Positions 8,832 through 32,160 of a stretch of 64,000 nucleotides of DNA are shown here, in pieces. Position 1 is the first letter of the stretch. The number at the start of each line of letters is the position of its first letter. This DNA comes from Cyclobacteriaceae bacterium (lineage in GTDB: Bacteria > Bacteroidota > Bacteroidia > Cytophagales > Cyclobacteriaceae): the NCBI GenBank assembly GCA_013141055.1, contig JABFRS010000001.1, positions 1,488,001 to 1,552,000 of the forward strand. Reading direction: 5' to 3'. The notes under the pieces are model-generated. The model searched no databases and was not told the origin of the DNA. It saw nothing but the letters and a program-made list of their open reading frames with translations. The translations under genes and the position numbers were made by a program.

Positions 8832-8890
8832 TCATTACTAATTATAGAACAATGAGAATCGGGAAGTTGGGAATCAAGAACCCATAAAAT

Positions 8891-8922
8891 AAAAAACCCT
8901 GCCATTGGAGATAGCAGGGCTT
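8891..8922 (-). terminator. terminator of icd
   Basis: On the minus strand GCAGGG/CCCTGC-type stems (8897-8902 with 8914-8919) are followed by six T (the A-run 8891-8896). It lies 20 bases beyond the icd stop. Confidence 0.85.
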
Positions 8923-8942
8923 AAAGTAAAAATTTAAATGGA

Positions 8943-10169: not shown

Positions 10170-10213
10170 GGTTATACGTGTTGAAGTGGTTATGTTGCGT
10201 TGAATTGCAGGGC

Positions 10214-10221
10214 CGAAGATA
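10214..10221 (-). promoter_or_regulatory. possible -7 box of icd
   Basis: Minus-strand TATCTTCG, 44 bases before the icd ATG, resembles TAnnTTTG. A TTTG lies at 10238-10241, but the spacer is only 16 bases. Confidence 0.33.
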
Positions 10222-10286
10222 GAAAATTAAGGCCATCCAAAAAGATTTTTTACATAGCATCGTTAGTATCAGAAAGTCAGTTTTTT

Positions 10287-10862
10287 ATGAAAATACTTGC
10301 GTTTTTGGCCTTAGGGCTCATATTCTCTTTCTCATCAGAACAGCCTTTTCTGAAAGATGATGAGGTTTGTCTTACCGTTGAAGAAAAGAAACTGTACGAC
10401 CTTATCATGCAGTACCGGAAGAGTAAAAATCTCAAGCCAATCCCCTATTCTGCCCGGCTCAGTAAAGTAGCTCAGGCGCATGTAAGAGATCTCAATAAAA
10501 ATTACGACTACGAGAATCGCGGTGAATGCAATCCACACAGCTGGTCCGACAAGGGAAACTGGAGTGCATGCTGTTATACCGCGGATCACTCAAAGGCATC
10601 CTGCATGTGGGATAAGCCAAAAGAGATCGCGGAGTACCCGGGAGCTGGTTATGAAATTGCATACTATAGTTCAGCAGGCGCAACAGCCTCAGAAGGATTA
10701 GAGGGCTGGAAAAAAAGTCAGGGACATAATCCATTACTTATCAACTCCGGAAGCTGGAGCAAGCTTGAATGGAAAGCCGTTGGAATCGGAATCTATGGAG
10801 AGTATGGAGTGGTGTGGTTTGGTGAGACCGAAGACAAATCGAAAATGAAAGTATGTGACTGA
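10287..10862 (+). CDS. secreted CAP-domain protein
   Basis: A 191-residue protein with a signal peptide (MKILAFLALGLIFSFSS) and a CAP/SCP (PR-1-like) domain. The helix with LYDLIMQYRKSKNLKPI, then LSKVAQAHVRDL with the conserved His, and the closing strand YGVVWFGE fit the fold; four cysteines (in SACCYTADHSKASC and ECNPHSW) may form disulphides. The function of bacterial CAP proteins of this type is unknown. ATG at 10287 is chosen because the signal peptide begins there; the frame is open 29 codons further upstream without protein-like content. It converges on panB. Confidence 0.8.
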   Translation: MKILAFLALGLIFSFSSEQPFLKDDEVCLTVEEKKLYDLIMQYRKSKNLKPIPYSARLSKVAQAHVRDLNKNYDYENRGECNPHSWSDKGNWSACCYTADHSKASCMWDKPKEIAEYPGAGYEIAYYSSAGATASEGLEGWKKSQGHNPLLINSGSWSKLEWKAVGIGIYGEYGVVWFGETEDKSKMKVCD

Positions 10863-10879
10863 GTTGAATTACATCATTG

Positions 10880-11701
10880 TCAATACTTCTCTTCCTGATT
10901 TGGGAATGATTTCGTCTTCACATCATCAACATACTTATTCAGCGCACCGGTAATGACTGTATCGAGGTCGGCATAGCGACGAAGAAAACGCGGCTTGAAT
11001 TCTTTTGTGATTCCGAGTATATCCTGTAAAACCAATACCTGTCCATCCACTTCGGGACCAGCGCCAATTCCAATTACCGGAATCTTTACAGATGACGCTA
11101 CCCTGCCTGCAAGATCAGCGGGAATCTTTTCTACGACCAAAGCAAAACATCCGCACTCTTCAAGAAGCTTTGCGTCTTCGAGAAGTTTATCGGCCTCATC
11201 TTTTTCTTTTGCACGAACAGTATACGTTCCGAATTTATAAATTGACTGTGGAGTTAATCCAAGGTGGCCCATTACAGGAACACCGGCGCTGAGAATTCTC
11301 AGAACAGAATCTTTTATCTCACTTCCACCTTCCATTTTCACTGCATGTGCTCCGGACTCCTTCATGATGCGGATGGAGGATCGTAATGCCTCACCTGAAC
11401 TCCCCTGATAGTGACCGAAAGGAATGTCCACCACGACTAATGCCCGCTTCACTCCTCTCACCACCGAAGTTGCGTGATAGATCATCTGATCCAGAGTGAT
11501 GGGCAAAGTGGTTTCATTTCCAGCCATCACGTTGGATGCTGAATCGCCAACCAGAATTACGTCCATGCCTGCATTGTCGACGATCTTTGCCATGCTGAAA
11601 TCGTATGCCGTAAGCATGGCAATCTTTTCACCACGGATCTTCATCTCGCGAAGTTGATGCGTTGTTATTCGCTTAACCTCTGCTTTCTTGTGCACTGACA
11701 T
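10880..11701 (-). CDS. panB: 3-methyl-2-oxobutanoate hydroxymethyltransferase
   Basis: It transfers a hydroxymethyl group from methylene-tetrahydrofolate to 2-oxoisovalerate, the first committed step to pantothenate. Motifs: [25 protein letters not shown] (metal-binding Asp), [26 protein letters not shown] and [18 protein letters not shown] at 11701 ([11 protein letters not shown], 273 residues) is preferred over an in-frame extension into the preceding gene. It is the third gene of the Lrp-like regulator - phosphoribosyltransferase - panB unit, 13 bases after the previous stop. No panC or panD is in the window. Confidence 0.95.
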
Positions 11702-11714
11702 GTTCGATTTTTTT

Positions 11715-12218
11715 TTAATGGAGATAAACCGCAGACTTCTTTCCCAAAACCACTTCAACATGTTCTGCAAGCGTGGTGGATAATTCGTATCCTGTATAAT
11801 TTGGTTGAACTGGGAACCTCGGATGACTTCTGTTTACCAGAACTGCTACTTCAATTTTCTTTACTTCAATCGCAAGAAAGGGTTTCATCCCATAGGCAAG
11901 CACGCGACCAGTATTCAAAACATCGTCAATCAAAATGACTGTCTTTTTCTTTAATTCATCCAGGCTGATATCGAGTGTGACCTCACTCTTCTGAGGAGAT
12001 TCTTTATCCACCGTGACCTTGCAAGTGATCACATTCAACTTTGAAATGCTGAGAAGTTCTTTTTCAAGCAATTGAGCCAGTGCATAACCCTGTCCATCAA
12101 TTCCTGCAAGTGCTATTACTTTCTCTGAAAAATTGTTTTCATAGATCTCATATGCCATTCGTCTTATCTTCTGACGAACCTGCGCATCTTCCAGCACTAA
12201 ATTCTTTTCAGATGTCAT
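11715..12218 (-). CDS. phosphoribosyltransferase-fold protein (PyrR-like)
   Basis: A 167-residue type I phosphoribosyltransferase. The PRPP-binding loop [14 protein letters not shown] (about residues 94-107) is intact, and the earlier [14 protein letters not shown] is the PPi loop region. Overall similarity is to PyrR-like proteins, which may act as uracil phosphoribosyltransferases or pyrimidine regulators; a purine base is not excluded. It overlaps the Lrp-like gene by ATGA at 12215-12218, so translation is coupled. Confidence 0.75.
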
Positions 12219-16365: not shown

Positions 16366-17556
16366 TCAGAAATTCTTCTTTTCCAGACTCGCATACAACT
16401 GACCATAGAGCTGAATACCGTAACTGAGAGAAAAGTAATTTGTTACAAGGCTTCGGGAAGGAGGCAATGAGCGTTGGGTCAGGGTTTGAATCGCCTCTTC
16501 ATAATCAACTTTATTAAGTTGAGATACCAAAAGACCACCGCTGCCTTTTGACAATATCTCCCTTACATCACCCCATCCATCGTTGGTAACAAATGGAACA
16601 TTCATCGCCATTAACTCTGCCATTTTTGTTGCTGAAGATCCTTTCTTGGAAAAAGATGGCTTTATAAAAAATACAGAAGCATTGGAAAGACTTAAATAAA
16701 GCGGCATCTCTTCCCTTCTGACTGAACGTGTGATAATCTCTTTTTTCCACTCCAACATGGAAAAGTCCGGAGCCTCAGAAGTCAGGATCAAAAATTTTGA
16801 TGAAGCAAATTTTTCGCGGAGTGAAGAATAGAACTCCATCATTTCATCCATCAGATACCATGTGCCCAGTGAGCCCACATAACATAAAACGAAATCGGAT
16901 TGCTCAATACCAAGGCTGGCTTGCAATTTCTGTTTGCTTTGAAGATCAATCTTATCCGGATTGAACAAATCTTCATCAACACAACATGGAATAATATGAA
17001 TGTTCCTGTTAAGATTCCAGGAGAGAATTTCCTTTTGGGCAGCATGAGTCAACGTGATGACTGCGTCGGCATGCTTTATAAATTCCTTTTCCCACGCTTT
17101 GAACTTGTTATAAATAATTCTGTAAAGAGGATTCCTCAGGTTCCACAATCCTCCCTCTACTCTTTCATCAGCCCAGAAGCCACGCATGTCAAAGAGAAAT
17201 GGAACGCCGAATTTCCTTTTAAGTCTGAGACCTACCAAGGCAGTAACATAGCTTCTGCAATGTACGAGTTGAAAGGGATTGGTCTTATGAAGTAATAACA
17301 CTTTTCTCCAAAGTGTATAAACATCCTTAAGGGTAGAGAATACCGGCGGCTTCCTGTGATATTCCAGGGGTAGCCATTTGATATTGGATTCTTTTACTTG
17401 TTGGAGAACTGCATCCAGATTTTGTGAACGCTCCTTTTTCTCAAAGGATATCAAGGTTATGGAATGTCGCTTTGCAAGTCCTTTCAAATATGGCAAAACC
17501 TGAGATTGCCCAAGGGGATCTGTCATGCCGTCATACGAAAGATAAAGGACGTTCAT
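16366..17556 (-). CDS. glycosyltransferase family 4 (GT-B)
   Basis: A 396-residue GT-B enzyme: N-terminal acceptor half starting MNVLYLSYDGMTDPLGQSQ, C-terminal GT1-type nucleotide-sugar domain (LCYVGSLGTWYLMDEM, then FFIKPSFSKKGSSATKMAELMAMNVPFVT). The donor sugar cannot be read from sequence. It is the last of the packed glycan genes, 19 bases after asnB. Confidence 0.85.
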   Translation of the reverse strand: MNVLYLSYDGMTDPLGQSQVLPYLKGLAKRHSITLISFEKKERSQNLDAVLQQVKESNIKWLPLEYHRKPPVFSTLKDVYTLWRKVLLLHKTNPFQLVHCRSYVTALVGLRLKRKFGVPFLFDMRGFWADERVEGGLWNLRNPLYRIIYNKFKAWEKEFIKHADAVITLTHAAQKEILSWNLNRNIHIIPCCVDEDLFNPDKIDLQSKQKLQASLGIEQSDFVLCYVGSLGTWYLMDEMMEFYSSLREKFASSKFLILTSEAPDFSMLEWKKEIITRSVRREEMPLYLSLSNASVFFIKPSFSKKGSSATKMAELMAMNVPFVTNDGWGDVREILSKGSGGLLVSQLNKVDYEEAIQTLTQRSLPPSRSLVTNYFSLSYGIQLYGQLYASLEKKNF

Positions 17557-17575: not shown

Positions 17576-19441
17576 TCAGGTATTCAATTTAAACCAACGC
17601 TGCAGAACGATCATTACCCACAGACGTTGGTAAAGATAATCCTTACCCTGATCAAATTGTCTGACTAATGATAGCACTTCATCAGCGTCGAACAAACCAG
17701 TCCCTTCAAGCACAGCCTTGTTTAAATAATCATCTATCAGATAACGAAGGTCACCCCTCAACCAGGATGTCATCGGTACACTGAAACCCCATTTGGGACG
17801 ATGAATTAAATCCTGGGGTAAATAATCTGCCAGCAATTCTTTGAGAAGCCATTTCGAAACGCCCTCAGTTCTTTTCATTGATTCCGGAAGAGCAAGAGCA
17901 AATTCGATCAGCATTTTATCAAGCAGAGGGCTTCTGCATTCAAGGCCATGGTACATGGAAGCACGATCAACCTTCACCAGCAAATCATCTTTAAGGTAAT
18001 ATTGAAGATCAAAGCGTGCCTGTTTCTCTGCAGTTGAGATTGTTCCGCTCAAAGCGCTATCAGAATAAACAAATGGATCAAACTCATTCTTATTTTTCAG
18101 CACCTTATCGCGTATCTCATGTTGAGAAAAAAAGTACTGCTCTTGTGAGAAGATGTGACTGCGGATCGAACCAATCTCAACAGGCTCCAGAATATGGGAA
18201 ATACGTTGAAGACGACTATTGGAGGTAGCGAATAAAAGCCTTGAAAGAACACTTCCAAAATTCTTAAAGAAAGGAAGCTCAAGTCTGTGCGCCCATTGAT
18301 ACGCTCCATATCCCTGAAACAATTCGTCGCCGCCATCACCTGTAAGCACCACCTTCACTTGCTTGCGGGCCATTTCGGATACCATCATCATAGGAATTGC
18401 TGAAGGATCGGCAAAGGGCTCGTCAAAATAGTTAAGGTAAGCAGGCAAGATCTCCATGGCTCGACGTTCTTCCATGATATACTCATGGTGATCCGTGCCA
18501 AGATGGTTTGCTACACGTCTGGCATATTCAGCCTCATCAAACTTTCGATCTTTAAAACCAATTGAAAAGGTTTTCATCTTCTGCGAACTTTGACGCGATG
18601 CCAGGGCGGTGATCAGAGATGAGTCGGTCCCACCGCTGAGAAATGATCCAATAGGAACATCCCCCACTAATCTTTTCTTTACTGCCTGATCCAGTATTTT
18701 CCTGAGGGATGCCTTTGCATTTACTGTGTCGATGTCAAGAAGGGGAATTTCCTCTCCCGTAATATTCCAGTATTTATTTACTTGAAAAGAATTATCAGCC
18801 TTTAGCCATCCAAAGTTAGCCGCGGGAAATTTATTTATGGACTTGAATATTGTGTCAGGCTCAGGAATGTAACCGAGATGGAGGAAGTGAGAAATAGAAG
18901 AGCGATTAATTGTTCCTGACCTCTCTATCAGGGGAATCTTTAGTAATGCTTTAATTTCCGAAGCAAAGGCAAAAAAGGAATCTGACTTAAAATAGAAGAG
19001 TGGCTTCTTTCCCATCCTATCACGAAGCAAGAATAGCTGGTGATCCTGATGATCATAGATAGCAAATGAAAACATGCCATCCAGATACTTTGCAATTCCG
19101 GCTCCGTAAATTTCAAATGCTTCGACTATAACCTCTGTATCAGAATTTGTTTTGAAAATCAGGCCATGATCCTGTATTAACTTATCACGGAGCTGCTTAT
19201 AGTTATAGATCTCTCCATTATAAACAATCACATACCTACCGGAGCTTGAATAAAATGGTTGATTTGCCTGTTCAGTTAAATCAATAATACTCAGTCGTGT
19301 ATGACCTAGTAGAACATTGGCTGAAGGATTGATGAATGTACCTTCCGCGTCAGGGCCACGTTGACGAAGAGTGCTCACCATGCCCTCAATAGAAGAAGCA
19401 TCAATAGCCGTATTGGAAAATATTCCTGCGATTCCGCACAT
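17576..19441 (-). CDS. asnB: asparagine synthase (glutamine-hydrolysing) family
   Basis: A 621-residue two-domain amidotransferase. The N-terminal Ntn domain begins MCGIAGIFS, so Cys2 is available after Met removal, with RGPDAEG, LGHTRLSIIDL and YNGEIYNY following. The C-terminal synthetase domain has the PP-loop FLSGGTDSSLITAL and VLTGDGGDELFQGYGAY. Both active sites look intact. The chemistry is ATP-dependent transfer of glutamine ammonia to a carboxylate. Embedded 3-20 bases from its neighbours in the polysaccharide series, it may amidate a uronic acid or other carboxylate rather than serve only asparagine supply. Confidence 0.9.
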   Translation of the reverse strand: MCGIAGIFSNTAIDASSIEGMVSTLRQRGPDAEGTFINPSANVLLGHTRLSIIDLTEQANQPFYSSSGRYVIVYNGEIYNYKQLRDKLIQDHGLIFKTNSDTEVIVEAFEIYGAGIAKYLDGMFSFAIYDHQDHQLFLLRDRMGKKPLFYFKSDSFFAFASEIKALLKIPLIERSGTINRSSISHFLHLGYIPEPDTIFKSINKFPAANFGWLKADNSFQVNKYWNITGEEIPLLDIDTVNAKASLRKILDQAVKKRLVGDVPIGSFLSGGTDSSLITALASRQSSQKMKTFSIGFKDRKFDEAEYARRVANHLGTDHHEYIMEERRAMEILPAYLNYFDEPFADPSAIPMMMVSEMARKQVKVVLTGDGGDELFQGYGAYQWAHRLELPFFKNFGSVLSRLLFATSNSRLQRISHILEPVEIGSIRSHIFSQEQYFFSQHEIRDKVLKNKNEFDPFVYSDSALSGTISTAEKQARFDLQYYLKDDLLVKVDRASMYHGLECRSPLLDKMLIEFALALPESMKRTEGVSKWLLKELLADYLPQDLIHRPKWGFSVPMTSWLRGDLRYLIDDYLNKAVLEGTGLFDADEVLSLVRQFDQGKDYLYQRLWVMIVLQRWFKLNT

Positions 19442-20405: not shown

Positions 20406-21086
20406 TTAAGCCAGATCTGTGCTTTTATTCAGTTGATCCAATTGCTCAGGGGTATCAACTGTGAACCAATTCTTTGGATACACATTAGAGCAATAGAGTT
20501 GAGAGGAAAGAATAAGCTGCTGCCACACTTCATAAAAATCCTGAACGGGCCTGGTAAGTTTATTTATTTTCTTAAGATCAACAATCTGGATGCCGGAACA
20601 ATACATGTCAGAAGGTTTGTTGCGATTAAGTTCGATCACTTTATTCTTATCATGATGAATGTAGTCACCCTCGAGACCTGGCACCGGTAATACAGGAATA
20701 ACCATGCATGCGGGAGCATTGAATTTCTCATATTCCTTTTCAAGAAGATCAAAATCAAGATCTGTAACATTGTCTGCCGTAAGAACTACGACGGGTCCTT
20801 CAAGCTGACTCATCAATGAATTATAGATCCACCATGCATTTCCTTTGCCTTCCGTATTAATGACCGTGTCTACACCCAGGCCGATTACATGTTCAGCGAG
20901 TAAAGCGCCTTTATATCCTACCGTAATATGAATGTGATCCACATGCTGGATCAGTTTTCTGATACCATTTTCGATAAGAGTATATTCTCCATACCGGATC
21001 ATAGGCTTAGGAATATGGTCGGTCATGGTACGCATTCTTGTACCGCGACCAGCCGCCATGATCAAAGCATGTTTTAATTTACGCAT
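20406..21086 (-). CDS. sugar-nucleotide (NTP) transferase
   Basis: A 226-residue nucleotidyltransferase with the signature ALIMAAGRGTRMRTMTDHIPKPMI at the N-terminus (GxGTR-type loop and Lys of the KP motif) and VVLTADNVTD for metal binding. It activates a sugar 1-phosphate to an NDP-sugar; the base and sugar are not determined. It is 4 bases after the CapD-like gene, which suggests that the two act on the same nucleotide sugar. Confidence 0.82.
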   Translation of the reverse strand: MRKLKHALIMAAGRGTRMRTMTDHIPKPMIRYGEYTLIENGIRKLIQHVDHIHITVGYKGALLAEHVIGLGVDTVINTEGKGNAWWIYNSLMSQLEGPVVVLTADNVTDLDFDLLEKEYEKFNAPACMVIPVLPVPGLEGDYIHHDKNKVIELNRNKPSDMYCSGIQIVDLKKINKLTRPVQDFYEVWQQLILSSQLYCSNVYPKNWFTVDTPEQLDQLNKSTDLA

Positions 21087-21090
21087 ACTC

Positions 21091-22047
21091 TTATAAAAAC
21101 TCCTGCGAGGGGGGATTTGAAATCAATTGCTCAATCTCTTTTTCCGTAAGGCGGTTTGCATTTTCAGAAGACAATGCCACAGTTACCGGTGAAGCTACTT
21201 TCTCATTGAACGAAAGCAGAAAATGCCTGACTCCAGAAAAATTTAACTCTTGAGTAAATGGAATCTCCTGATCCCCAATCAGAAATTCATCAAGTCTTTC
21301 TCCCGGGCGGCCATCAATTTTTTCATAACGGCCTCCATATTTCTTTATCCATACCTCGAGGACATCCATGATCTGCGCTGACTTCATTTCACGTGAAAGG
21401 ACTTTTCCTTTGACAATTGAAATATTTTCAATGGCTGTTTTTACAAGTTCAACAGCTTCATGAACGGTAAAGAAAAATCTTCGCATTTCAGGTCCGGTCG
21501 TTCCAATTACTTTGGTATCATCGTGCATCCTTTTCCACAACGGCAGAACTGAACCCGTTGACCATGCAACGTTGCCATATCGAACACATGTAAACTGTGT
21601 GCTGGTCTTACTATTCATTGAACAGAACAATCGTTCCATCAACGCTTTTGTAAGTCCATACGTATTACGGACGGGTGGAGAAGCTTTATCTGTTGACACT
21701 CCCACTACGGTTTCCACGCCGCAGTCAATTGCAATACGGGCAACATTTTGAGAGCCTGTTACATTCACATCGATACACTCCATTGGGAATTTCTCTGAGA
21801 GGTCGACAAATTTGGTTGCTGCGGCATGCACAACGATTGACGGCTTGAATTCAACCATTACATCTTTCACCGAACCCGCATTCGTTACATCCAGCGGTAC
21901 CACTTCACATCCGGTGTATCCTTTAGCTTTGAAATTCTGTTTGTTATTCCTGGCACCCAGTATTACGTTGTAATTGTTCTTTAATGAAAGAGCAAGCTCA
22001 CGGCCTAAAAATCCTGTGCCTCCTGTGACCAAAAGTATTTTCTTCAT
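21091..22047 (-). CDS. CapD/PseB-like nucleotide-sugar dehydratase or epimerase
   Basis: A 318-residue extended short-chain dehydrogenase: NAD-binding TGGTGFLG at residues 8-15, VVHAAATKFVDLSE, the family motif GVSTDKASPP, and the catalytic pair in YGLTK. These are hallmarks of the soluble UDP-GlcNAc 4,6-dehydratase/5-epimerase class. It would make a 4-keto-6-deoxy sugar. It starts inside the preceding GT2 stop (overlap 22044-22047) and lacks the membrane N-terminus of long CapD proteins. Confidence 0.85.
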   Translation of the reverse strand: MKKILLVTGGTGFLGRELALSLKNNYNVILGARNNKQNFKAKGYTGCEVVPLDVTNAGSVKDVMVEFKPSIVVHAAATKFVDLSEKFPMECIDVNVTGSQNVARIAIDCGVETVVGVSTDKASPPVRNTYGLTKALMERLFCSMNSKTSTQFTCVRYGNVAWSTGSVLPLWKRMHDDTKVIGTTGPEMRRFFFTVHEAVELVKTAIENISIVKGKVLSREMKSAQIMDVLEVWIKKYGGRYEKIDGRPGERLDEFLIGDQEIPFTQELNFSGVRHFLLSFNEKVASPVTVALSSENANRLTEKEIEQLISNPPSQEFL

Positions 22048-22976: not shown

Positions 22977-24098
22977 CTATTCACCAGTTAAATAAAGTTT
23001 TTCAAGCCGGGTAGTCATTTGATCAATTGAAAATCTCTTTTCAACATAAACTCTGCCTTGTTCAATTAATCGCTTTGAAAGAGGGGGATCGTTTAACAAT
23101 CTACGAATATTAAAAGCAATCATTTCACTCTGCTTATAATCTACCACCAGCGCATTCACACCATTAACAATAAATTCATTGGCAATTCCTGATAATGTGA
23201 AAATTGAGGGGATACCTGCAGCAAGAGCTTCCACATAGGTTTGTCCAAATGCTTCACACTTTGAATCAATAGGTGCATGAATAAAGATATCAAAGCAGTG
23301 ATAAAGTGGCGCTACATCATTTTCAAATGGAATGATGGTTTGATTTGCATCAGGGATGGCAAGCATCATGGCAGCAATTTCTTTTTCAAAATCACCACCA
23401 GCGTTGGCGAGCACAAGGTGTGCATTTGGATATTCTTTTAAAATTTCCCGAAAGGCAGGTATGATAAATTGTATTCCCTTCCACTCGGTATGGCGCGCGA
23501 TGACACCCACTACCGGATGACTACCCTTGAGTTTATATTTTGATTTGAATTTCTCAATTGTTGTGTCTCTGGTTGAGAAATAGGCAAGATCAAATCCATG
23601 AGGAATGGATCTTATCTTATCCGAATGAACACCCTCAAGGTTTACTAACGTTTCATAGAGAGAATTAGAAGGTATAATAATATGTGTTGCAAGCTTATTA
23701 ATAAACCGATCTATATAAACTGCCTTAGGATAATACTGATGATGAAGGGTGGCGTGATGCCTGGTGTAAATTCTTCTTTTTATTCCGAGGAGTCGTGCTG
23801 CAAAAAGTCCGATCAGATTAGCATGATAAAGATGTGTGTGTACAACCTGAGGTTTTTCCCTTCTTAAAATTGAAAATACCTTGAAGAAAGCAAGGATCAT
23901 GGAAACCTTTCCCGCCAACGGAATATGAAATACCTTCAGATTCTTATCATGAAGAAATTGACTTAACTCCGTCTTCGATTGTCCTAATAAGATAAATGAA
24001 AGTTGTATGTTTTTTCTCACTAATCCATCAATCATCCATTCAAGCTGAAGCGACTTGTGGACGTGAGAGATAATGAATACAATTTTCAATTGATTCAT
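22977..24098 (-). CDS. glycosyltransferase family 4 (GT-B)
   Basis: A 373-residue GT-B enzyme with a retained EX7E motif (CEAFGQTYVEALAAGIPS) in the C-terminal nucleotide-sugar domain and an N-terminal half with VVHTHLYHANLIGLFAARLLG. It overlaps the FkbM-type gene by ATGA (24095-24098). Donor unknown. Confidence 0.88.
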   Translation of the reverse strand: MNQLKIVFIISHVHKSLQLEWMIDGLVRKNIQLSFILLGQSKTELSQFLHDKNLKVFHIPLAGKVSMILAFFKVFSILRREKPQVVHTHLYHANLIGLFAARLLGIKRRIYTRHHATLHHQYYPKAVYIDRFINKLATHIIIPSNSLYETLVNLEGVHSDKIRSIPHGFDLAYFSTRDTTIEKFKSKYKLKGSHPVVGVIARHTEWKGIQFIIPAFREILKEYPNAHLVLANAGGDFEKEIAAMMLAIPDANQTIIPFENDVAPLYHCFDIFIHAPIDSKCEAFGQTYVEALAAGIPSIFTLSGIANEFIVNGVNALVVDYKQSEMIAFNIRRLLNDPPLSKRLIEQGRVYVEKRFSIDQMTTRLEKLYLTGE

Positions 24099-24982
24099 GC
24101 TTGGGCCAATAGATCGAAATGCAAATTTTTAAAATCCGTTTTGTCAGAAATAACTGCTCCATTTCCTGTGTGAATGAAATCCTTATAACCCAACTCCATT
24201 AGATATTTTATAAGCTCATGAGCAGTGTCTCCCTGATAGCGGAGATTATCATCGTTGATCTCAACAAACAATATCGGATGATCTGCGGAAAGAATTTTTT
24301 TTGCCCCTTTTAAGACCTTTAACTCATAGCCCTCAACATCAATTTTAATCAGATCTATTGCCGTCCTCTCCCTTTGATCGAAAAAAAGATCCAGAGTAGT
24401 AATCGGTACCTTTTCACCGCTTGTTCCTGATTTGCCTATTCTGTTCCCACCAAGGTTCCCGGCGGTTCTTATCTCCATAACCGCTTCACCTTTTTGCTCA
24501 CCAAGCCCAAGATGATGAATAGAAATATTATCAAAGTGATTAAGCGCTAGATTTTCCTTCGCTCTGAAATAGTTTAATGGATCTGGTTCAAATCCAATCA
24601 CTGTAACATCGCGCTGCGCTGATCCCATGCGCATGCTTACATATCCAATATTGGCTCCGACATCAATGCATAAAAAACCAGGCTTTACAAGATTTAATAG
24701 CCGGTCATATGATCTGGACTCTTCATTATCATAACCAAAGTAAAGGCCGTGGCCTAAAAAATCACTGATGTCTGCTTTTAACTTTACACCAAACCTGTTG
24801 AACTTACGAAAGGAAGAGTGAGGATAGGTATAGCTATGAGGAACGATCTTATAAATCAACCTGTCCATCGAAACACCTTGTGTTTTCGCCACCAACCACT
24901 TTTCAAATAAATAGAATTTGAAAATGCTTCTTAGCTTATGAAGTATTCTTGTTTTGAGAGGTTGAGATTTATGATCCGTCAA
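24095..24982 (-). CDS. FkbM-family methyltransferase
   Basis: A 295-residue protein with the FkbM core: FLCIDVGANIGYVSMRMGS, IGFEPDPLNYFRAKENL and LIKIDVEGYELKVLKGAKKIL. Such enzymes O-methylate hydroxyl groups of sugars or polyketides. The start is uncertain: TTG at 24982 gives the full-length protein just after the preceding stop, while the first in-frame ATG (Met39) would shorten it by 38 residues of basic, helix-like sequence. Confidence 0.82.
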   Translation of the reverse strand: MTDHKSQPLKTRILHKLRSIFKFYLFEKWLVAKTQGVSMDRLIYKIVPHSYTYPHSSFRKFNRFGVKLKADISDFLGHGLYFGYDNEESRSYDRLLNLVKPGFLCIDVGANIGYVSMRMGSAQRDVTVIGFEPDPLNYFRAKENLALNHFDNISIHHLGLGEQKGEAVMEIRTAGNLGGNRIGKSGTSGEKVPITTLDLFFDQRERTAIDLIKIDVEGYELKVLKGAKKILSADHPILFVEINDDNLRYQGDTAHELIKYLMELGYKDFIHTGNGAVISDKTDFKNLHFDLLAQA

Positions 24983-25000
24983 TTCTATTACCGTTTGCTA

Positions 25001-25810
25001 CTAATTGTCAATGGATACCATTTTCAAAGAACTCCTGAGTTTAGAAATGCGTTCGGAGTTTATTTCCTTTCCAAAGTTCTTAAAGTTTTTCACAAGCCTC
25101 ATCTTTTCCTTGAGATTCCATTGCCTTGAATAGAAAGTTCTCCCGGAACCAATCTCCGACTGTGGATGATTTGAGTTTCCTCCAGCTTCCAAATGCGAGA
25201 CTGCCTTCATACATAAATGATGTGCATGCTCCATTACTTTGATATGTACGGCCGAAAGATCCTCAGAGCCGTCAAACCTGGAGGTTTCTGTAGCGATAAT
25301 ATTACCTGAATCAATTCCTGCATCGATCCACAAAACAGTATTTCCTATCAGATGAAATTCATTATTGGCAATACACCAATTCGTACAGTTTGGCCCGCCA
25401 TTCAGATACGGAGAGAGTCCGGTATGAAGATTGATGATCCCGATTTTTGCTTTTAATGACAATAGTTCATTTTTTATCAAAGATGTTCCTGAGACAATAA
25501 TCAGATCAGGATCCAAAGCACGTGTAAAGGCAAGCACCTGGCCATTGTTTATATCGGAGACCTTTAACTTGGTAACATCCGGAAATTGAGAAAAACTATG
25601 TTCATAAAAATCAAGCATTTCAACCCATGCCTTTGAGATACTACCCAACATGAGTTTCTCTATTACTTTTTCAAATACCCGGGATACTGTGATCTTTCGT
25701 TTTGGTAGCCTGTTCTCAATCACGATGCCAGTCAGCGGAAATAAAGCATGAATCTTATTGGAAAGGGCTTTTTGATTCGCTTCCCCATTGATCCACATAA
25801 CAATTTTCAT
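25001..25810 (-). CDS. formyltransferase-family protein
   Basis: A 269-residue protein with a formyl-transferase fold. The catalytic triad region is visible: Asn127 and His129 in IINLHTGLSPYLNGG, and Asp167 in WIDAGIDSG. It lacks the C-terminal tRNA-binding domain of methionyl-tRNA formyltransferase, so it probably formylates an amino sugar using 10-formyl-tetrahydrofolate. No sugar aminotransferase is in the window to make such a substrate. It overlaps the deacetylase gene by ATGA (25807-25810). Confidence 0.75.
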   Translation of the reverse strand: MKIVMWINGEANQKALSNKIHALFPLTGIVIENRLPKRKITVSRVFEKVIEKLMLGSISKAWVEMLDFYEHSFSQFPDVTKLKVSDINNGQVLAFTRALDPDLIIVSGTSLIKNELLSLKAKIGIINLHTGLSPYLNGGPNCTNWCIANNEFHLIGNTVLWIDAGIDSGNIIATETSRFDGSEDLSAVHIKVMEHAHHLCMKAVSHLEAGGNSNHPQSEIGSGRTFYSRQWNLKEKMRLVKNFKNFGKEINSERISKLRSSLKMVSIDN

Positions 25811-26727
25811 TTGTAGCCTGTGACGGTTTTGATATTCCCCAGCAAATTAGTGATCCTTAATTTCATTTTCCACCATGGCTCATTGTAGAGTTCAATTCGG
25901 GGAATTTCGAATTGTGAATCCTTTTCGGGATTGAAGATGGTCTGCTTTACCGCGAGCCCTGTTTTATAGCCAACCTCCTTACTGATATCAATCACTTTCT
26001 GATTATAGCTTCCCACAGGATAAGAAATAGTAGTAGGAAAATAGCCCAAATTCTTTTCAATAGCTTCCGCTGAGGTTAGAAGTTCGGAACGTATTTCGTT
26101 CACATGATCCATGGTGCCTAACATTCCATGAGCAGCGGTGTGCGAACCTATATAATGGCCCGCCTGACTAAGCTGCTTCAAGTCATTCCATGACATCATG
26201 TTCTTTGGAAACTCGACATCATTATAAGTTTGAAAGACTACTTCCAGCAACTGATTACGTTGCACATGTGACAGTTTCTTGATAACACCTTTGAACTTTT
26301 TAACGTAATTAATTCTGTCATCTGCAGAGAACAAATCTTCTACCCTCAATTCCTGTGGAAGAAAATTAAATCCTAAATGAATTTTAGAAATCCGTGTATG
26401 CCCAAAAGCATAGTCAAGCATAAAAGTCCACGTCGGAATATTCTTATCGATACAATCAGTTACTACATAAAAAGAAGCCTTGCAATTATACTTTGATAAT
26501 ATTTCCGCACCATACTCAATGTTGTCTTTATAGCCATCATCAAAAACAATTGTCGCAAACCTTCTTTTGCTATGAATTTCATCTGATTGAATTAAATCTT
26601 CAAGTCTGCGAACTTCATAATTCTTTGAAATGTATTGAATAGCTTTTTCGAAACGCGATACATCCATAGGATCCCAAAGGGGGTCACGAACAGGGCTTAC
26701 ACGATGAAACAAGAAATTACTTACCAT
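25807..26727 (-). CDS. polysaccharide deacetylase (NodB/CE4 domain)
   Basis: A 306-residue CE4-type enzyme without signal peptide. Motif 1 IVFDDGYKDN supplies the catalytic and metal-binding Asp; motif 2 SHTAAHG supplies the two metal His; ISYPVGSYN resembles motif 3. It removes an N- or O-acetyl group from a sugar, probably on the cytoplasmic side because no export signal is seen. Overlap with the formyltransferase suggests a deacetylate-then-formylate order, which is inference. Confidence 0.85.
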   Translation of the reverse strand: MVSNFLFHRVSPVRDPLWDPMDVSRFEKAIQYISKNYEVRRLEDLIQSDEIHSKRRFATIVFDDGYKDNIEYGAEILSKYNCKASFYVVTDCIDKNIPTWTFMLDYAFGHTRISKIHLGFNFLPQELRVEDLFSADDRINYVKKFKGVIKKLSHVQRNQLLEVVFQTYNDVEFPKNMMSWNDLKQLSQAGHYIGSHTAAHGMLGTMDHVNEIRSELLTSAEAIEKNLGYFPTTISYPVGSYNQKVIDISKEVGYKTGLAVKQTIFNPEKDSQFEIPRIELYNEPWWKMKLRITNLLGNIKTVTGYK

Positions 26728-26733
26728 AATACT

Positions 26734-27645
26734 TTAAGCAGCAGGTCGCGTCATCATGACAGAATGTACGTAGATATAAGCACTGTAAAGTTTATAACGC
26801 AAGGATTGAGGAAGACTTAGGAAAACTTTGGATTCGAACAATGGTTCCCACCGGTTTTCATTCCCGAAGAAGAATTTCTTAATGCCATCACCGGAGAGTG
26901 AGGCACTCCATTTAAAATGGTTCGGAAGTATTTTCTTGTATTCAGGATGTTTTTTCAATAGAACATACTTAGACATCATGTACTCCTTCTGACGACGAAC
27001 GTAAGGCAGTAACGTTGAAAAATCATCATGATATCCATTGATCTTAGGAATATAACGAATGGGAATCCCTTGCTGAAGAGCGCGAATCCCAAAATCAAAA
27101 TCTTCCGAATCTCTAAGTGTGGAATCAAATTCACCCACCTTCCAGAACGTCTTTTTTGTTAGAGAAAGATTGGCCGAAGTAATTCCATAATTGGCATATG
27201 AGATGGTGGTACTCTGCAACTCCCTCCATCCTGATTCAATAGTTCTTCTGTAATTCCAAAAGTCATTAAGTCTGGCCTTTTCAGGATCCATCTCCAGGTG
27301 ACCAAACATGATCTCGTTTTGATTTTCCAAATGAAAGTTCCTGTGAAGCTCTACGGCATCTTTAAAAAGCCTGATGTCATCATCAATAAAAATCAGAATT
27401 TCGCCTTTGGAAGCATTTACGCCTTCATTCTTTGCATGCGCCCTTCCCCTGTTTTCAATAAAATGAACACTCATGCGCGGAAGAATACCATCAAATCTCT
27501 TAATTACATCTTGTGTGTTGTCAGTGGATCCATCTATGATAATGACAACTTCAAAATCAGGAAATGTTTGCTGTGAAAGCGCAGTCAGTGCCGCTTCAAT
27601 TTTGTGAGCTCCGTTAAAGGTTGGAATGATGACACTGATATTCAT
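26734..27645 (-). CDS. glycosyltransferase family 2 (GT-A)
   Basis: A 303-residue GT-A enzyme: ISVIIPTFNGAHKIEAAL, VVIIIDGSTDNTQ, and the metal-binding IFIDDDIRLF. An acidic DSEDFDFGIR catalytic region follows. It is 6 bases after the Wzt stop and before the deacetylase. Confidence 0.88.
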   Translation of the reverse strand: MNISVIIPTFNGAHKIEAALTALSQQTFPDFEVVIIIDGSTDNTQDVIKRFDGILPRMSVHFIENRGRAHAKNEGVNASKGEILIFIDDDIRLFKDAVELHRNFHLENQNEIMFGHLEMDPEKARLNDFWNYRRTIESGWRELQSTTISYANYGITSANLSLTKKTFWKVGEFDSTLRDSEDFDFGIRALQQGIPIRYIPKINGYHDDFSTLLPYVRRQKEYMMSKYVLLKKHPEYKKILPNHFKWSASLSGDGIKKFFFGNENRWEPLFESKVFLSLPQSLRYKLYSAYIYVHSVMMTRPAA

Positions 27646-27650
27646 CCAGG

Positions 27651-28835
27651 CTATGATTGTATTCTCCCCTCATGCAGAAATGAAATATATCCTCTGTGCT
27701 GCTTGTCGTATGGAACAATGTCTCCTTCAGGAAGAGAAATATGGAAAGAGTTGAGATCATAAAAGTCACCCTGAACGGCATTCGATGAAATATAAATTCC
27801 CATGTGATAAATTCCATCCACCAGTTGAAGGCCATTTAATGTTCCTGAAAATATCAGATCATTCTTCTCCCGTGATTTTGACAACAACTCTTCACTTCGA
27901 AGATCAACGATGCCAATACGTTCATTCAATTCATTGTAGAGCAAAAGGGCAAGACCCGAAATCGTGTTAGGAGCGCTAGACGAAATACGAAACGAATAAT
28001 GAAGAGAGTCTCCAGAACTCAATTCACTCTTCTGAAAAACGAAATCATGCAATGATATTCCCTCTGCAAGCTTTATAACGGATCGATCTGTCTTTTTCTC
28101 TTCACGATTTTTAAGATACGTATGCATGACCTGATCCGGTGTGCCCATTGCTGTGATCTCCCCCTGATCAAGCAATAACGATCGGTTACATAATCGTGAA
28201 ACAGCAGCCATATTATGACTTACAAAAAGAATGGTTCTTCCGCTCTTTCTAACGTCGTCCATCTTTCCGAGACACTTCTTTTGAAATTCAGCATCACCCA
28301 CAGCTAATACTTCATCAATAATCAATATCTCAGGCTCAAGAAATGCGGCGACTGAGAATGCCAGGCGCAACTGCATTCCACTGGAATAATGCTTTAAGGG
28401 AGTATCAAGAAATTTCTCTGTTCCACTGAAGTCAATGATCTCATCAAATCTTGAAACAATTTCTTTTTTCTTCATGCCCATCAGTGAGCCGTTGAAAAAG
28501 ACATTCTCACGTCCGGTTAATTCAGGATGAAAACCCGTTCCAACTTCAAGCAAGCTGGCCATCCTTCCTCTTCCTTTTATTTTTCCTTCGGTGGGTGGAG
28601 TGATCTTCGAAAGGATTTTAAGCAGAGTGGATTTTCCTGCACCATTCTTTCCAATGATTCCAAGTGAATCTCCTGGATTGACATCGAAGGTGACATCTTT
28701 CAAAGCCCAGAAATCTTCTTCCCTGGGAGAAGATCTAAGAACGTTTGACATTCGGTCACGAAGACTCAGATACGATTCCTGGTGATGGATCGTAAATTTC
28801 TTTGAAACGCTATGCAATTCAAGAACTGGCTTCAT
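27651..28835 (-). CDS. wzt: polysaccharide ABC exporter, ATP-binding subunit (Wzt type)
   Basis: A 394-residue ATPase. Walker A GKNGAGKST at residues 62-70, signature YSSGMQLRLAF, Walker B ILIIDEVLAVGD, and switch His in FVSHNM. After about residue 240 there is a beta-rich extension of some 150 residues like the Wzt carbohydrate-binding domain that recognises the finished O-antigen end. With Wzm it exports undecaprenyl-linked polysaccharide. The extension suggests that chain termination or a terminal modification is read before export. Confidence 0.88.
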   Translation of the reverse strand: MKPVLELHSVSKKFTIHHQESYLSLRDRMSNVLRSSPREEDFWALKDVTFDVNPGDSLGIIGKNGAGKSTLLKILSKITPPTEGKIKGRGRMASLLEVGTGFHPELTGRENVFFNGSLMGMKKKEIVSRFDEIIDFSGTEKFLDTPLKHYSSGMQLRLAFSVAAFLEPEILIIDEVLAVGDAEFQKKCLGKMDDVRKSGRTILFVSHNMAAVSRLCNRSLLLDQGEITAMGTPDQVMHTYLKNREEKKTDRSVIKLAEGISLHDFVFQKSELSSGDSLHYSFRISSSAPNTISGLALLLYNELNERIGIVDLRSEELLSKSREKNDLIFSGTLNGLQLVDGIYHMGIYISSNAVQGDFYDLNSFHISLPEGDIVPYDKQHRGYISFLHEGRIQS

Positions 28836-29662
28836 GATAAATCGGCGAAGTACATTTCAGTTCTTTTAAAGTATAAAATCCCGGTCAGCAACATGATGAC
28901 TCCGGAAACAATACTGATAGTAACCATCTCAGTATTCATCATGCCGCCATTGAAAGGTGCACGGAAAATCTCAATAGCAGCGTACATGGGATTTAGCGCC
29001 AGAAGAATTTCTATCCACTTCTGTTTGACCATCATCTGAGGATAGATCACAGGAGAAAGAAAAAGTAAAGCCTGTACGAGAAATGGGATAACGTATCGAA
29101 AGTCGCGATACTTAATATTCAATGCAGCCAGCCAGCAGCCAGGGCCAAATGTAGCGATGCAGGAAAAAAGTATTCCCAGAGGCCAGAATAATATTGCTGA
29201 TGATATATCAATGGAGGGCGAATACCAGAACAGCATGCCAATAAATACAATGAAAGCAAAGCACAGATCAACTAATGATGAGAGAATGGAGCTGATGGGA
29301 ATGATCAGTCGGGGAAAATAAATTTTCTTGATAATGTTTGAATTGGTCACCATGCTATTTCCAGCATTGGTGATGCCATTGGAGAATAGATTCCAGAGGA
29401 TCAATCCTGAGAAAACAAATAAGGGATAGGGAAGACCAGTACTTTGAATGCCCATTCCACGACTAAAGAACAGGGTAAAGATCAGCATCATGAAGAGTGG
29501 CTGGAGAACGGCCCAAAAAATTCCCAATACCGTCTGCTTGTATTTTACTTTAACATCTCTCCAGGTAAAAAAATAAAAGAGCTCACGGTATTGCCAGATT
29601 TCACTCAGGCCAAGCGATAACTTTCCGGGTGGGTTTATAACAAATTCATCATTGTCCTTCAT
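28832..29662 (-). CDS. wzm: polysaccharide ABC exporter, permease subunit (Wzm type)
   Basis: A 276-residue ABC-2 permease with six predicted membrane helices, preceded by WRDVKVKYKQTVLGIFWAVLQPL, typical of O-antigen/teichoic-acid exporters. ATG 29662 is preferred to a TTG eight codons upstream. It overlaps wzt by ATGA (28832-28835) and is the first gene of the 13-gene minus-strand series. Confidence 0.9.
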   Translation of the reverse strand: MKDNDEFVINPPGKLSLGLSEIWQYRELFYFFTWRDVKVKYKQTVLGIFWAVLQPLFMMLIFTLFFSRGMGIQSTGLPYPLFVFSGLILWNLFSNGITNAGNSMVTNSNIIKKIYFPRLIIPISSILSSLVDLCFAFIVFIGMLFWYSPSIDISSAILFWPLGILFSCIATFGPGCWLAALNIKYRDFRYVIPFLVQALLFLSPVIYPQMMVKQKWIEILLALNPMYAAIEIFRAPFNGGMMNTEMVTISIVSGVIMLLTGILYFKRTEMYFADLS

Positions 29663-29693
29663 TGAAGACTGGGCAATTTCTCTCAAAAGTGCG

Positions 29694-29791: not shown

Positions 29792-30877
29792 GTGACTAAA
29801 AAATGCATTGCATTCATCTGCCCCTATCCCGTTGGACAATCTCCATCGCAACGATTCAGGTTTGAGCAGTACTTTGAACTCTTAAGCAGCAATAACTTTG
29901 AATATCATGTTTATCCCTTCCTGGGAGTTTCCTCTTGGAAAATTCTTTACAAAAAAGGTAATTCTGTTAGGAAGATCTTTGGGATCTTAAGTGGCTTTAC
30001 AAAAAGGTTTGGCCTGCTGTTTAATATTGGAAAATTCGATTTCATCTTCATTCACCGTGAAGCAACTCCGATCGGGCCGCCTTTTTTTGAATGGATGATT
30101 GCAAATTTCTTTCGGAAGAAGATCATTTACGACTTTGATGATGCAATCTGGCTGGCCAATACTTCTGATGAAAATAAGATTATTTCTGGGTTAAAATGGC
30201 ATCACAAGTTCAATGTCATCTGCAATGCCAGCTACCGTCTAAGCTGTGGAAATCAATTTCTGGCCGACTACGCTCTGCAATTCAACAATGCTTTAATCGT
30301 AAATCCTACAACAATTGATACAATTCATCATCATAATCCGGACAAACATCCAATAGCACAAAATAAAAATAAAATCATCATTGGCTGGACAGGCTCCCAT
30401 TCAACATTGCCATACTTAACTCCACTCCTTCCAGTTATTGAAACTCTATGGAAAAAATATCCTGAAATTGAATTGCTCATCATAGCTGATAAAAATCCTG
30501 AATGGCAACAACCCTTTATAAATTTTGTTCAATGGTCAAAAGACACGGAAATAGATGACCTGATGAAAATTGATATTGGGATTATGCCTATGCCAAATGA
30601 AACATGGACTAAGGGAAAGTGCGGCTTCAAGGCCTTACAATATATGAGTCTTAAGAAACCGGCACTCGTTTCACCCGTTGGAGTCAACTCTGAAATCGTT
30701 GATCAAGTCGTGAACGGATTTCTTTGTTCAACGGAAGAAGACTGGATTCAGCATCTTGAGTATTTACTTCATCATCCTGAAGCGCGTAAAACAATGGGAG
30801 AAAAAGGAAGAGAAAAAGTAGAGAAATATTATTCCGTTTCTTCCAACTCTTCAACATTCCTGTCGCTGTTTGAATAG
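29792..30877 (+). CDS. glycosyltransferase-like protein (GT-B)
   Basis: A 361-residue protein with a GT-B layout: FICPYPVGQSPSQRFRFEQYF at the N-terminus, IYDFDDAIW in the middle, and a C-terminal half with IIIGWTGSHSTLPYL, KCGFKALQYMSLKKPALVSPVG. The start is GTG at 29792; no in-frame ATG lies near. It is divergent from wzm, and its last 49 bases overlap the 3' end of the convergent Wzy-like gene. Confidence 0.78.
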   Translation: MTKKCIAFICPYPVGQSPSQRFRFEQYFELLSSNNFEYHVYPFLGVSSWKILYKKGNSVRKIFGILSGFTKRFGLLFNIGKFDFIFIHREATPIGPPFFEWMIANFFRKKIIYDFDDAIWLANTSDENKIISGLKWHHKFNVICNASYRLSCGNQFLADYALQFNNALIVNPTTIDTIHHHNPDKHPIAQNKNKIIIGWTGSHSTLPYLTPLLPVIETLWKKYPEIELLIIADKNPEWQQPFINFVQWSKDTEIDDLMKIDIGIMPMPNETWTKGKCGFKALQYMSLKKPALVSPVGVNSEIVDQVVNGFLCSTEEDWIQHLEYLLHHPEARKTMGEKGREKVEKYYSVSSNSSTFLSLFE

Positions 30878-32160
30878 TTCATCAGGATGACAAGTGCCAG
30901 CATGTAGAATGGCAGCAAAGGAATCTTATACCGTGTGAGCGTTCCAAAATTAAATGTTGAAATACCAACAGCAAATGCAAAGCTGATGGAGAATGCAAGG
31001 CAGAACAGAACGTTGTAATTTGTTAGCCCAAGAAATATCTGCCTGAAGTTCCTGACAATAATGTAAAGCGTAAATATCAACAGGAAACTACTTTCGATCG
31101 CAGACACCAACATGAGAGGATTTCTCACTTCCCAGAGATAAGGTCTGAAAAGAGAAACATTTATAGCAGCCGGGGCCGCCAGTATCATTCCAGCGGGTGT
31201 CCAGTCTTCAATATCCAAAGTATACCCTGATCCGGCATCTCGTCCCGTCCAATACCTGATATCATATGCGGTGATACGGGCCGTCTTGGCAAGATTACCG
31301 ACCGAATACTTCGCGTCGTCTTCACCAATCTTAACGATTGAATAAATACTGGAAACCAAAACCAACGTTACTACGAGCGGAACCAGCAGCATTTTAAGAA
31401 CAGTTGATCGGATTCTTCCAAAGTTGTAAGCAACAATCCAGACAATGATAGCAGGAAGGTAAACCTGAAGGATAAAGATCTTAACACTGAAAATAACATA
31501 GAGAGAAATGAGCAATGCTACCACAGACCAGAATGAGCCTTTCCTTTCAATGAACAGCAAATGAAAGTGATATGTGGCTACACCCAGGCAACTAATGATC
31601 ACCGTATCCTTTAAAACCCCACTACCCCAAAAAAACACTGAGGGAATAAAGAGAGTGGCAACTGCTATCCCGCGATGGAACCTGGGAAATTCTTTATAGA
31701 ATGTTAAGTAAAGCATCCACATAGCAGCAAAACTTCCCGCTCCAAATAAAACAGCTGTTGCAGAGTATGAAGAGAAAGTCAGCAAATCAAACAACGCAGC
31801 AATTCTGATAACAAAATATGAACTATGATCCCTATAGAAATAGATTCGTGAAGAGTACTCGTAAATACCCGTACTATTGCTTCCGTCATTTAACAAAAGC
31901 TTGAGACCAATGTCTGGAGAATCTGTAAATGCCTCCCAGACAACCCGACTGCCATTGGTATGATAGTTAAAGGTATCGCCTCCACTATAATAAAACTGAT
32001 AGATGAACCCGAGCGCAATTGCTCCGAGTATTCGAACTGTAAGGGCTGGGAAAAAATATCCTCTGTTAATTTGATCGGTTACATGAGGCCGAATCACATA
32101 CGCACCTGCATAGATGAGCAGAATAATGATTGGCGTAACAAGTAAGTCGCGTAATTCCAA
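30829..32160 (-). CDS. polytopic membrane protein, possible Wzy-like polysaccharide polymerase
   Basis: A 443-residue protein with about ten hydrophobic helices and a large loop (about residues 55-115, YSGGDTFNYHTNGSRV ... YFYRDHSSYF). Size, helix number and position beside sugar-nucleotide genes suggest a polymerase or a membrane glycosyltransferase; no motif proves it. The start is TTG at 32160, 6 bases after the fcl stop; an overlapping ATG at 32167 is in another frame. The C-terminus overlaps the convergent glycosyltransferase. Confidence 0.6.
   Translation of the reverse strand: MELRDLLVTPIIILLIYAGAYVIRPHVTDQINRGYFFPALTVRILGAIALGFIYQFYYSGGDTFNYHTNGSRVVWEAFTDSPDIGLKLLLNDGSNSTGIYEYSSRIYFYRDHSSYFVIRIAALFDLLTFSSYSATAVLFGAGSFAAMWMLYLTFYKEFPRFHRGIAVATLFIPSVFFWGSGVLKDTVIISCLGVATYHFHLLFIERKGSFWSVVALLISLYVIFSVKIFILQVYLPAIIVWIVAYNFGRIRSTVLKMLLVPLVVTLVLVSSIYSIVKIGEDDAKYSVGNLAKTARITAYDIRYWTGRDAGSGYTLDIEDWTPAGMILAAPAAINVSLFRPYLWEVRNPLMLVSAIESSFLLIFTLYIIVRNFRQIFLGLTNYNVLFCLAFSISFAFAVGISTFNFGTLTRYKIPLLPFYMLALVILMNYSNSDRNVEELEETE

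Follow-up and report, generated by a model that had tools for sequence, protein, structure and literature searches.

A widespread deacetylase-formyltransferase gene pair and its possible role in exchanging acetyl for formyl groups on sugars

N-formyl sugars are found both on the surfaces of bacteria and in glycans of archaea, and the route described for them begins with an amino sugar that an aminotransferase has produced. A stretch of 64,000 nucleotides (nt) from a Cyclobacteriaceae genome (positions 1488001-1552000 of contig 1 of a 4.65-Mb genome in two contigs; hereafter the window, at its full length) encodes a formyltransferase in a polysaccharide gene cluster. Which amine could this enzyme formylate? 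As the original prediction had noted, no aminotransferase is found nearby: PF01041 (DegT/DnrJ/EryC1) and PF00155 (Aminotran_1_2) have no match in the window, other aminotransferase families not having been searched. The formyltransferase gene overlaps a gene for a NodB-family deacetylase and is followed by one for an FkbM-family methyltransferase. We found that the conserved unit is a widespread two-gene module of deacetylase and formyltransferase, to which the FkbM gene is incidental. The best-supported reading, to which we assign a probability of about 0.7, is that the pair is a module for acetyl-to-formyl exchange on an N-acetylated sugar. That the two enzymes work together we regard as almost certain.

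The three open reading frames (ORFs) were confirmed on the minus strand by reading the DNA directly. The TGA of the deacetylase gene and the ATG of the formyltransferase gene share the ATGA at 25807-25810, a 4-nt overlap. The formyltransferase stop codon (TAG, 25001-25003) and the TTG start codon of the adjoining FkbM gene at 24982 are separated by 18 nt. The formyltransferase matches PF00551 (Formyl_trans_N) with 33.7 bits (cut-off 26.1). No match to Formyl_trans_C, the tRNA-binding domain, was identified by Pfam in this protein or in the 70 members of a formyltransferase alignment (A4), and Asn127, His129 and Asp167 are invariant across the 70; both features had been anticipated from the window protein. 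Its structural model (predicted local distance difference test score, pLDDT, 96.2) is closest in fold to the ArnA transformylase domain (Z 19.7 over 205 residues, root-mean-square deviation (rmsd) 2.9, 20% identity), with which Fmt ties (Z 19.4). WbkC follows at Z 17.2, and known members of the family lie at Z 16-20. Pfam and NCBIfam hold no specific model for these formyltransferases. The enzyme probably adds a formyl group to a sugar amine freed by the deacetylase.

The deacetylase matches Polysacc_deac_1 above the Pfam cut-off. It has both the NodB-type Asp-Asp-His-His residues and the NodB fold, and it probably removes an acetyl group from a sugar. H8, D63, D64, H196, H200 and P237 are invariant across 62 aligned deacetylases (A5). 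The top fold match of the model (pLDDT 96.5) is PplD (Z 29.3, 215 residues, rmsd 2.1); further matches are Bacillus polysaccharide deacetylases (Z 27.4-27.9) and IcaB and Escherichia coli PgaB (Z 26.2). ArnD is found at rank 39 (Z 10.7, 170 residues, rmsd 3.6), a low rank that is no proof of a different function, and scores 11.2 bits against a profile of the paired deacetylases. By hydropathy, the window deacetylase lacks a signal-peptide-like segment (the top 15-residue mean among segments starting in the first 35 residues is 0.10). Thus, both enzymes would share the cytoplasm, where 10-formyltetrahydrofolate is found.

The original prediction considered such a route unusual. The pair proved to be widespread in several phyla and is not peculiar to the window. 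When an alignment of five formyltransferases (A3) was used to scan 84,980 species genomes, 191 relatives were identified, and the best 80 of these were retained; the 46 loci L053-L098 are referred to as core loci. Deacetylase, DegT, FkbM and glycosyltransferase labels were given by custom profiles that were built partly from the same loci. The 80 loci span many Bacteroidota, Psychrobacter, cyanobacteria, other Proteobacteria, Omnitrophota, Delongbacteria and a single record with an archaeal name. A NodB deacetylase gene adjoins the formyltransferase gene on the same strand in 77 of the 80, within 250 nt in 75; the other two are a locus with an overlap caused by an over-extended start (L111) and one with a truncated deacetylase piece at the contig start (L083). 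Among the three non-adjoining loci, one contig starts inside the formyltransferase gene (L096), a methyltransferase gene separates the pair members in another (L123), and the third (L117) is considered below. The background rate at the same loci is 64 deacetylase neighbours for 1021 other genes. Family assignments were checked with Pfam (E<=0.001), by which all 62 deacetylases matched Polysacc_deac_1 and all 70 formyltransferases matched Formyl_trans_N.

Both gene orders occur. The deacetylase gene comes first in 51 of the 75 close pairs and the formyltransferase gene in 24, and starred branches of the formyltransferase tree require at least two changes of order. The distance matrices of the two proteins are correlated (r 0.92 for 56 rows and 0.85 for 40 core rows), with 0 of 2000 permutations as high in either case. 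We did not identify a fused deacetylase-formyltransferase among 563 reading frames of more than 400 amino acids in the fetched loci. The FkbM gene is not conserved with the pair: blastp (E<=1e-15, 60% coverage) found a relative in 0 of the 80 loci and a profile detected an FkbM gene in 2 (L072 and L073), and the three-gene unit of the original prediction was rejected.

A looser set of 40 loci (L013-L052) was obtained with the window formyltransferase as sole query against 291 and 395 genomes. A deacetylase gene is adjacent in 25 of these, including one in which it is split over two frames (L026). The remaining 15 comprise 11 frames of 304-337 amino acids, taken for Fmt by length and start, plus L019, L024, L048 and L050. 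Six of the deacetylase neighbours are of the window type and 19 belong to a second NodB subtype, which has a DFELFWG-like first motif and matched Polysacc_deac_1 in two of two members scanned. In L026 (307-1240), the second-subtype gene lies upstream of the formyltransferase gene in two frames and represents either a broken gene or a sequencing error. L042, from this set, and L116 have identical formyltransferases. With the Psychrobacter submarinus formyltransferase as query, 293 genomes from the same order yielded two others, one with an adjoining deacetylase gene (L165) and L166. Among 289 genomes of the class of Thalassospira, the formyltransferase of Antarctobacter as query gave three matches (L168, L169 and L170), and in L170 a NodB deacetylase gene overlaps the formyltransferase frame.

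On four plasmids, a PIG-L de-N-acetylase takes the place of the NodB enzyme next to formyltransferases that are more distant from the window protein. The PIG-L gene overlaps the formyltransferase gene by 4 nt on a plasmid of Antarctobacter heliothermus, and the same 4-nt overlap is present on plasmids of three Leisingera strains. These are all of the plasmid records with one place covering at least 80% of the Antarctobacter query (4/4). The PIG-L identity was established by Pfam in three of the four (Antarctobacter and two Leisingera) and by annotation and a custom profile in the last (L173). NodB and PIG-L have unrelated folds. The partners thus differ yet share de-N-acetylation, which is the main reason why we prefer exchange over deformylation. 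In total, 82 plasmid records match the window formyltransferase; of three examined, one has PIG-L and two, both rhizobial, are without an annotated deacetylase neighbour. A plasmid of the haloarchaeon Halorussus caseinilyticus (L174) was found to carry, by annotation, a cluster of neuB, neuC, a cytidylyltransferase gene, two genes for formyltransferases and one for PIG-L, the last not being adjacent to a formyltransferase gene. This cluster would fit an N-formyl sialic-acid-like sugar.

DegT aminotransferase genes are scarce near the pair and common in the genomes that carry it. We identified DegT genes at 9 of the 80 pair loci within the fetched flanks (up to 10 kb on each side), and 71 are without one. 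In the looser set, none was found within 1.5 kb on each side, either in the 25 deacetylase-adjacent loci or in the rest. For the source genome as a whole, a claim that no aminotransferase is encoded would be false, as seven strong DegT genes lie outside the window, with about 238 kb between the formyltransferase gene and the closest of them. Control formyltransferases of the aminotransferase route behave differently. A search with NF005755 (dTDP-4-amino-4,6-dideoxyglucose formyltransferase; dTDP, deoxythymidine diphosphate) over 296 genomes gave 30 fetched loci, two of them above the cut-off; both of these directly adjoin a DegT gene, as do 2 of the other 28 (26 do not). No deacetylase of any of the three types was found at the 30 loci within 1.5 kb on each side. 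The formyltransferase genes of L137 and L149 also adjoin DegT genes, and were singled out for that reason, so they are no independent control.

A formyltransferase tree was built from 65 rows, with every second core row omitted, and its deepest forks are weak. The window formyltransferase is in no starred set of up to half of the tree rows. A starred fork groups ArnA with L048, Fmt-like rows and two rows linked to DegT; the pair-linked rows lie elsewhere. Because the deepest forks are weak, the tree does not establish a single origin for all pair-linked formyltransferases.

We propose the following mechanism. The cytoplasmic NodB enzyme, probably metal-dependent, would remove the acetyl group from an N-acetyl sugar, and the formyltransferase would use 10-formyltetrahydrofolate to N-formylate the amine so freed. 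The simplest position would be C2, the 2-acetamido group of an N-acetylglucosamine (GlcNAc)- or N-acetylgalactosamine (GalNAc)-type sugar. The substrate could be a nucleotide sugar, a lipid-linked intermediate or the cytosolic end of a glycan. Coupled translation of the two genes would keep their enzymes in balance and prevent a build-up of the free amine. In the window, the product would belong to a surface polysaccharide exported by the adjoining ATP-binding cassette (ABC) transporter.

Exchange is favoured because the pairing is near-obligate in several phyla, occurs in both gene orders, recurs with a second NodB subtype and persists where PIG-L replaces NodB, and because the fold of the deacetylase is nearer to GlcNAc de-N-acetylases than to ArnD. 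Several observations weigh against it. All five seed formyltransferases of the A3 alignment have a deacetylase neighbour, so the count of 77 of 80 may be inflated. No deacetylase was identified in the fetched flanks of the formyltransferases of L019, L024, L048, L050, L117, L166, L168 and L169. At L117, where the contig ends about 690 nt upstream, neither side has one, and at L168 and L169 none of the three deacetylase types was found. Two rhizobial plasmids (L175, Sinorhizobium; L176, Ensifer) carry, in the vicinity of polysaccharide genes, a gene annotated as methionyl-tRNA formyltransferase, next to which no deacetylase is annotated. PgaB, IcaB and PplD are extracytoplasmic enzymes that act on polymers containing GlcNAc (the window protein is without a signal-like segment), and the deacetylases of L058 and L072 have a more hydrophobic start than the window protein. 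As a precedent for the opposite reaction, E. coli ArnD, a NodB enzyme, is described in excerpts of one paper as removing a formyl group (PMC10967932). No GT2 or GT4 glycosyltransferase was labelled in the fetched flanks, some of them short, of 34 of the 80 loci. In Psychrobacter submarinus (L093), the pair has a DegT gene about 5 kb away, and DegT genes (E<=1e-40) are present somewhere in 25 of 25 pair-bearing genomes picked from the 80 loci. The amine may thus come from a remote source, and we rejected the use of a genome-wide absence of aminotransferases as proof of the route. The proposed sequence of deacetylation followed by formylation stands as the best-supported account, on the strength of the pairing, the PIG-L replacement and the fold; the three-gene unit and the confinement of the arrangement to this window did not stand.

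One alternative is a transient formylation of the kind known for ArnA and ArnD, in which an amino sugar made by a remote aminotransferase would be formylated and the NodB enzyme would later take the formyl group off again, so that the glycan would carry a free amine. The arnA and arnD genes provide a precedent with the same adjacency and 4-nt overlap, the ArnA transformylase domain is among the best fold matches (tied with Fmt), and the DegT genes elsewhere in the source genome could supply the amino sugar. ArnD acts after ArnA. However, ArnD falls far below the GlcNAc de-N-acetylases by fold (with the caution already given for its rank) and scores only 11.2 bits against the profile of the paired deacetylases, and the arn operon includes arnB whereas most pair loci are without a DegT gene in their flanks. 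Moreover, the enzyme that replaces NodB on four plasmids belongs to a family whose Pfam name is GlcNAc-PI de-N-acetylase, and ArnA is apart from the pair-linked rows on the tree, at a starred fork in a tree with weak deepest forks. We consider this alternative unlikely.

Alternatively, the formyltransferase could follow the conventional route, with a 4-keto sugar produced by the PseB-like short-chain dehydrogenase/reductase (SDR) of the cluster, aminated by a remote DegT enzyme and then formylated, while the deacetylase acts independently on another residue. The SDR and an accompanying nucleotidyltransferase are encoded in the cluster, and DegT genes are present in the source genome and in all of the pair-bearing genomes examined for them. 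Yet relatives of the SDR and nucleotidyltransferase were identified in 0 of the 46 core loci, and the above-cut-off controls for this route are beside DegT genes, with no deacetylase at any control locus. An independent deacetylase would also fail to explain the adjacency in 77 of 80 loci, the changes in gene order and the PIG-L replacement, and we judge this explanation quite improbable. The possibility that the pair acts on something other than polysaccharide (a lipid, a cell-wall precursor or a small metabolite), with its location in polysaccharide clusters being secondary, draws on the 34 loci without a labelled GT2 or GT4 and on pairs that by eye are among genes apparently unrelated to polysaccharide (L054, L061, L076 and L104). 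It is very unlikely given that 46 of the 80 loci have GT2 or GT4 genes and that the window pair is in a run with glycosyltransferases and an ABC exporter. It would alter the substrate alone, and the exchange chemistry could stay the same. Exchange remains our preferred reading. The broader proposal, that a general acyl-exchange module converting N-acetyl to N-formyl sugars was assembled at least three times (with two NodB subtypes and with PIG-L), has in our view slightly better than even odds.

The pair is part of a longer minus-strand run (Table 1), in which the genes for the ABC exporter, a GT2, the deacetylase, the formyltransferase, the FkbM methyltransferase, a GT4 and a second GT2 are followed by those for the PseB-like SDR, the sugar nucleotidyltransferase, a methyltransferase, the asparagine-synthase-like amidotransferase and a glycosyltransferase. 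The best NCBIfam matches of the exporter ATPase are polysaccharide and teichoic acid exporters, all below their cut-offs. The SDR scores 162.6 bits against the NCBIfam PseB model, for which the cut-off is 407.75.

Table 1. Genes of the pair and of the surrounding polysaccharide cluster in the window
Feature	Positions	Strand	Basis and remarks
NodB-family (Polysacc_deac_1) sugar N-deacetylase, probable, 306 amino acids, first of pair	25807..26727	-	Pfam, residues, model, fold
Formyltransferase (Formyl_trans_N only), 269 amino acids, second of pair	25001..25810	-	Pfam, residues, model, fold
FkbM-family methyltransferase (Methyltransf_21/FkbM), same run, outside conserved pair	24095..24982	-	Pfam above cut-off
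Glutamine-hydrolysing asparagine-synthase-like amidotransferase, polysaccharide cluster	17576..19441	-	NCBIfam; relative in 20/46 core loci
GT4 glycosyltransferase	16366..17556	-	Relative in 21/46 core loci; weak TIGR04063 match, below cut-off
GT2 glycosyltransferase, directly upstream of pair	26734..27645	-	Pfam; relative in 2/46 core loci
ABC exporter, probably polysaccharide: Wzt-like ATPase 27651-28835, membrane subunit 28832-29686	27651..29686	-	Pfam, NCBIfam
Sugar nucleotidyltransferase 20406-21086 and PseB-like SDR 21091-22047	20406..22047	-	Pfam, NCBIfam; possible keto-sugar source, conventional route

Other genes of the cluster were considered as further parts of the module. The SDR and nucleotidyltransferase were rejected for lack of relatives in the core loci. 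The amidotransferase and the GT4 gene at 16366 were rejected as obligatory partners given the frequencies in Table 1, although they are frequent companions; by custom labels, both occur in 18 of the 46 core loci. An amidated N-formyl uronic acid is one possible reason for their recurrence; another is simply a common type of cluster. The window's own genes served as seeds for the glycosyltransferase profiles, which may overlook other glycosyltransferases. Given the 34 loci where no GT2 or GT4 was labelled, a polysaccharide specific to the cluster is not a necessary substrate.

Within the source genome, we identified three Formyl_trans_N matches, read by length and score as fmt, purN and the window gene, and three Polysacc_deac_1 matches, one of them in the pair. 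No relative of the formyltransferase (E<=1e-10) was identified in the four other sampled genomes of the source genus. A phage origin was rejected, as there is no relative in viral_contigs, where a single protein was the query and the peptide patterns reach close relatives only. A 443-amino-acid protein encoded at 30829-32160 of the window, with no assigned function, resembles by eye a family of 16 ORFs found in 15 of the 80 pair loci.

Individual loci show some further settings. In L054, L061, L076 and L104 (around 8000-12000), the pair is alone, outside a visible polysaccharide cluster, and its neighbours by eye are malic enzyme, RND efflux or DedA-like proteins. The formyltransferases of L019 and L024, from two genomes, have neighbours that by eye are HSP90 and an ABC-2-like permease. 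In L048, a formyltransferase with a Formyl_trans_C domain is encoded beside a gene that resembles NeuB by eye, and this formyltransferase may belong to the synthesis of an N-formyl nonulosonic acid. In L166, the place expected for a deacetylase is occupied by a protein that matches the C-terminal model of squalene-hopene cyclase and, below cut-off, GH127. In L176, an ATP-grasp gene follows the formyltransferase gene.

If the exchange reading is correct, it would constitute a second route to N-formyl sugars, one that begins with common N-acetyl sugars and requires no aminotransferase. N-formyl glycans would then be predictable from genomes that a rule based on aminotransferases misses, and formyltransferases without a specific Pfam or NCBIfam model would have a function. 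The route could also explain 2-N-formyl hexosamines and 5-N-formyl nonulosonic acids of unassigned origin, and the origin of a 2-N-formyl sugar would be directly testable with two enzymes.

The constituent families of the module are known, and the combination was not found in searches of open-licence papers. Judged from listings, none of the papers retrieved there concerns the pairing of a formyltransferase with a deacetylase, which is weak evidence of absence. GalNFmA and 5-N-formyl-legionaminic acid, from N-formyl glycans to which no deacetylase is assigned, are products in which the formylated nitrogen would derive from a 2-acetamido sugar, an origin that acetyl-to-formyl exchange would account for; neither is tied here to the gene pair. 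The formyl group of GalNFmA is at C2, and the C5 nitrogen of nonulosonic acids derives from the C2 nitrogen of a hexosamine. According to excerpts of the respective papers, GalNFmA occurs in the O-antigen of Pseudomonas aeruginosa O6 (PMC4773840), and 5-N-formyl-legionaminic acid occurs in Halorubrum sp. PV6, for which a formyltransferase gene was proposed in a main text that does not contain the stem 'deacetyl' (PMC6137143).

The arn genes of E. coli K-12 are the nearest in arrangement, as arnA and arnD encode a formyltransferase and a NodB protein and overlap by 4 nt, like the window pair. The order in that operon is the aminotransferase gene arnB, then arnC, arnA and arnD, whereas the window run has no DegT match. 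ArnA is fused to a UDP-GlcA (uridine diphosphate-glucuronic acid) dehydrogenase, whereas the window formyltransferase is a single domain of 269 amino acids, and ArnD, which carries a deformylase annotation, matches the paired deacetylase poorly (11.2 bits; Z 10.7). VioF, FdtF, QdtF, WbkC and PseJ are formyltransferases of the aminotransferase route. Enzymes of this type have in common with the window formyltransferase the Formyl_trans_N fold, the Asn-His-Asp residues and the lack of a match to the tRNA-binding domain. A directly neighbouring DegT gene is expected for the VioF/FdtF type and is present beside both controls above the cut-off, whereas the window gene adjoins a deacetylase gene with no DegT gene in the window, and the window formyltransferase is not grouped with the aminotransferase-route controls on the tree (deepest forks weak). 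The window deacetylase has in common with PplD, PgaB, IcaB and BA0330 the fold (Z 26-29) and the Asp-Asp-His-His residues. Unlike them, it is without a signal-peptide-like segment, as judged by hydropathy, and its gene overlaps a formyltransferase gene. The PIG-L/LmbE de-N-acetylases (PIG-L, BshB) belong to a family unrelated to that of the window enzyme; on the Antarctobacter and Leisingera plasmids, a PIG-L gene fills the place of the deacetylase gene.

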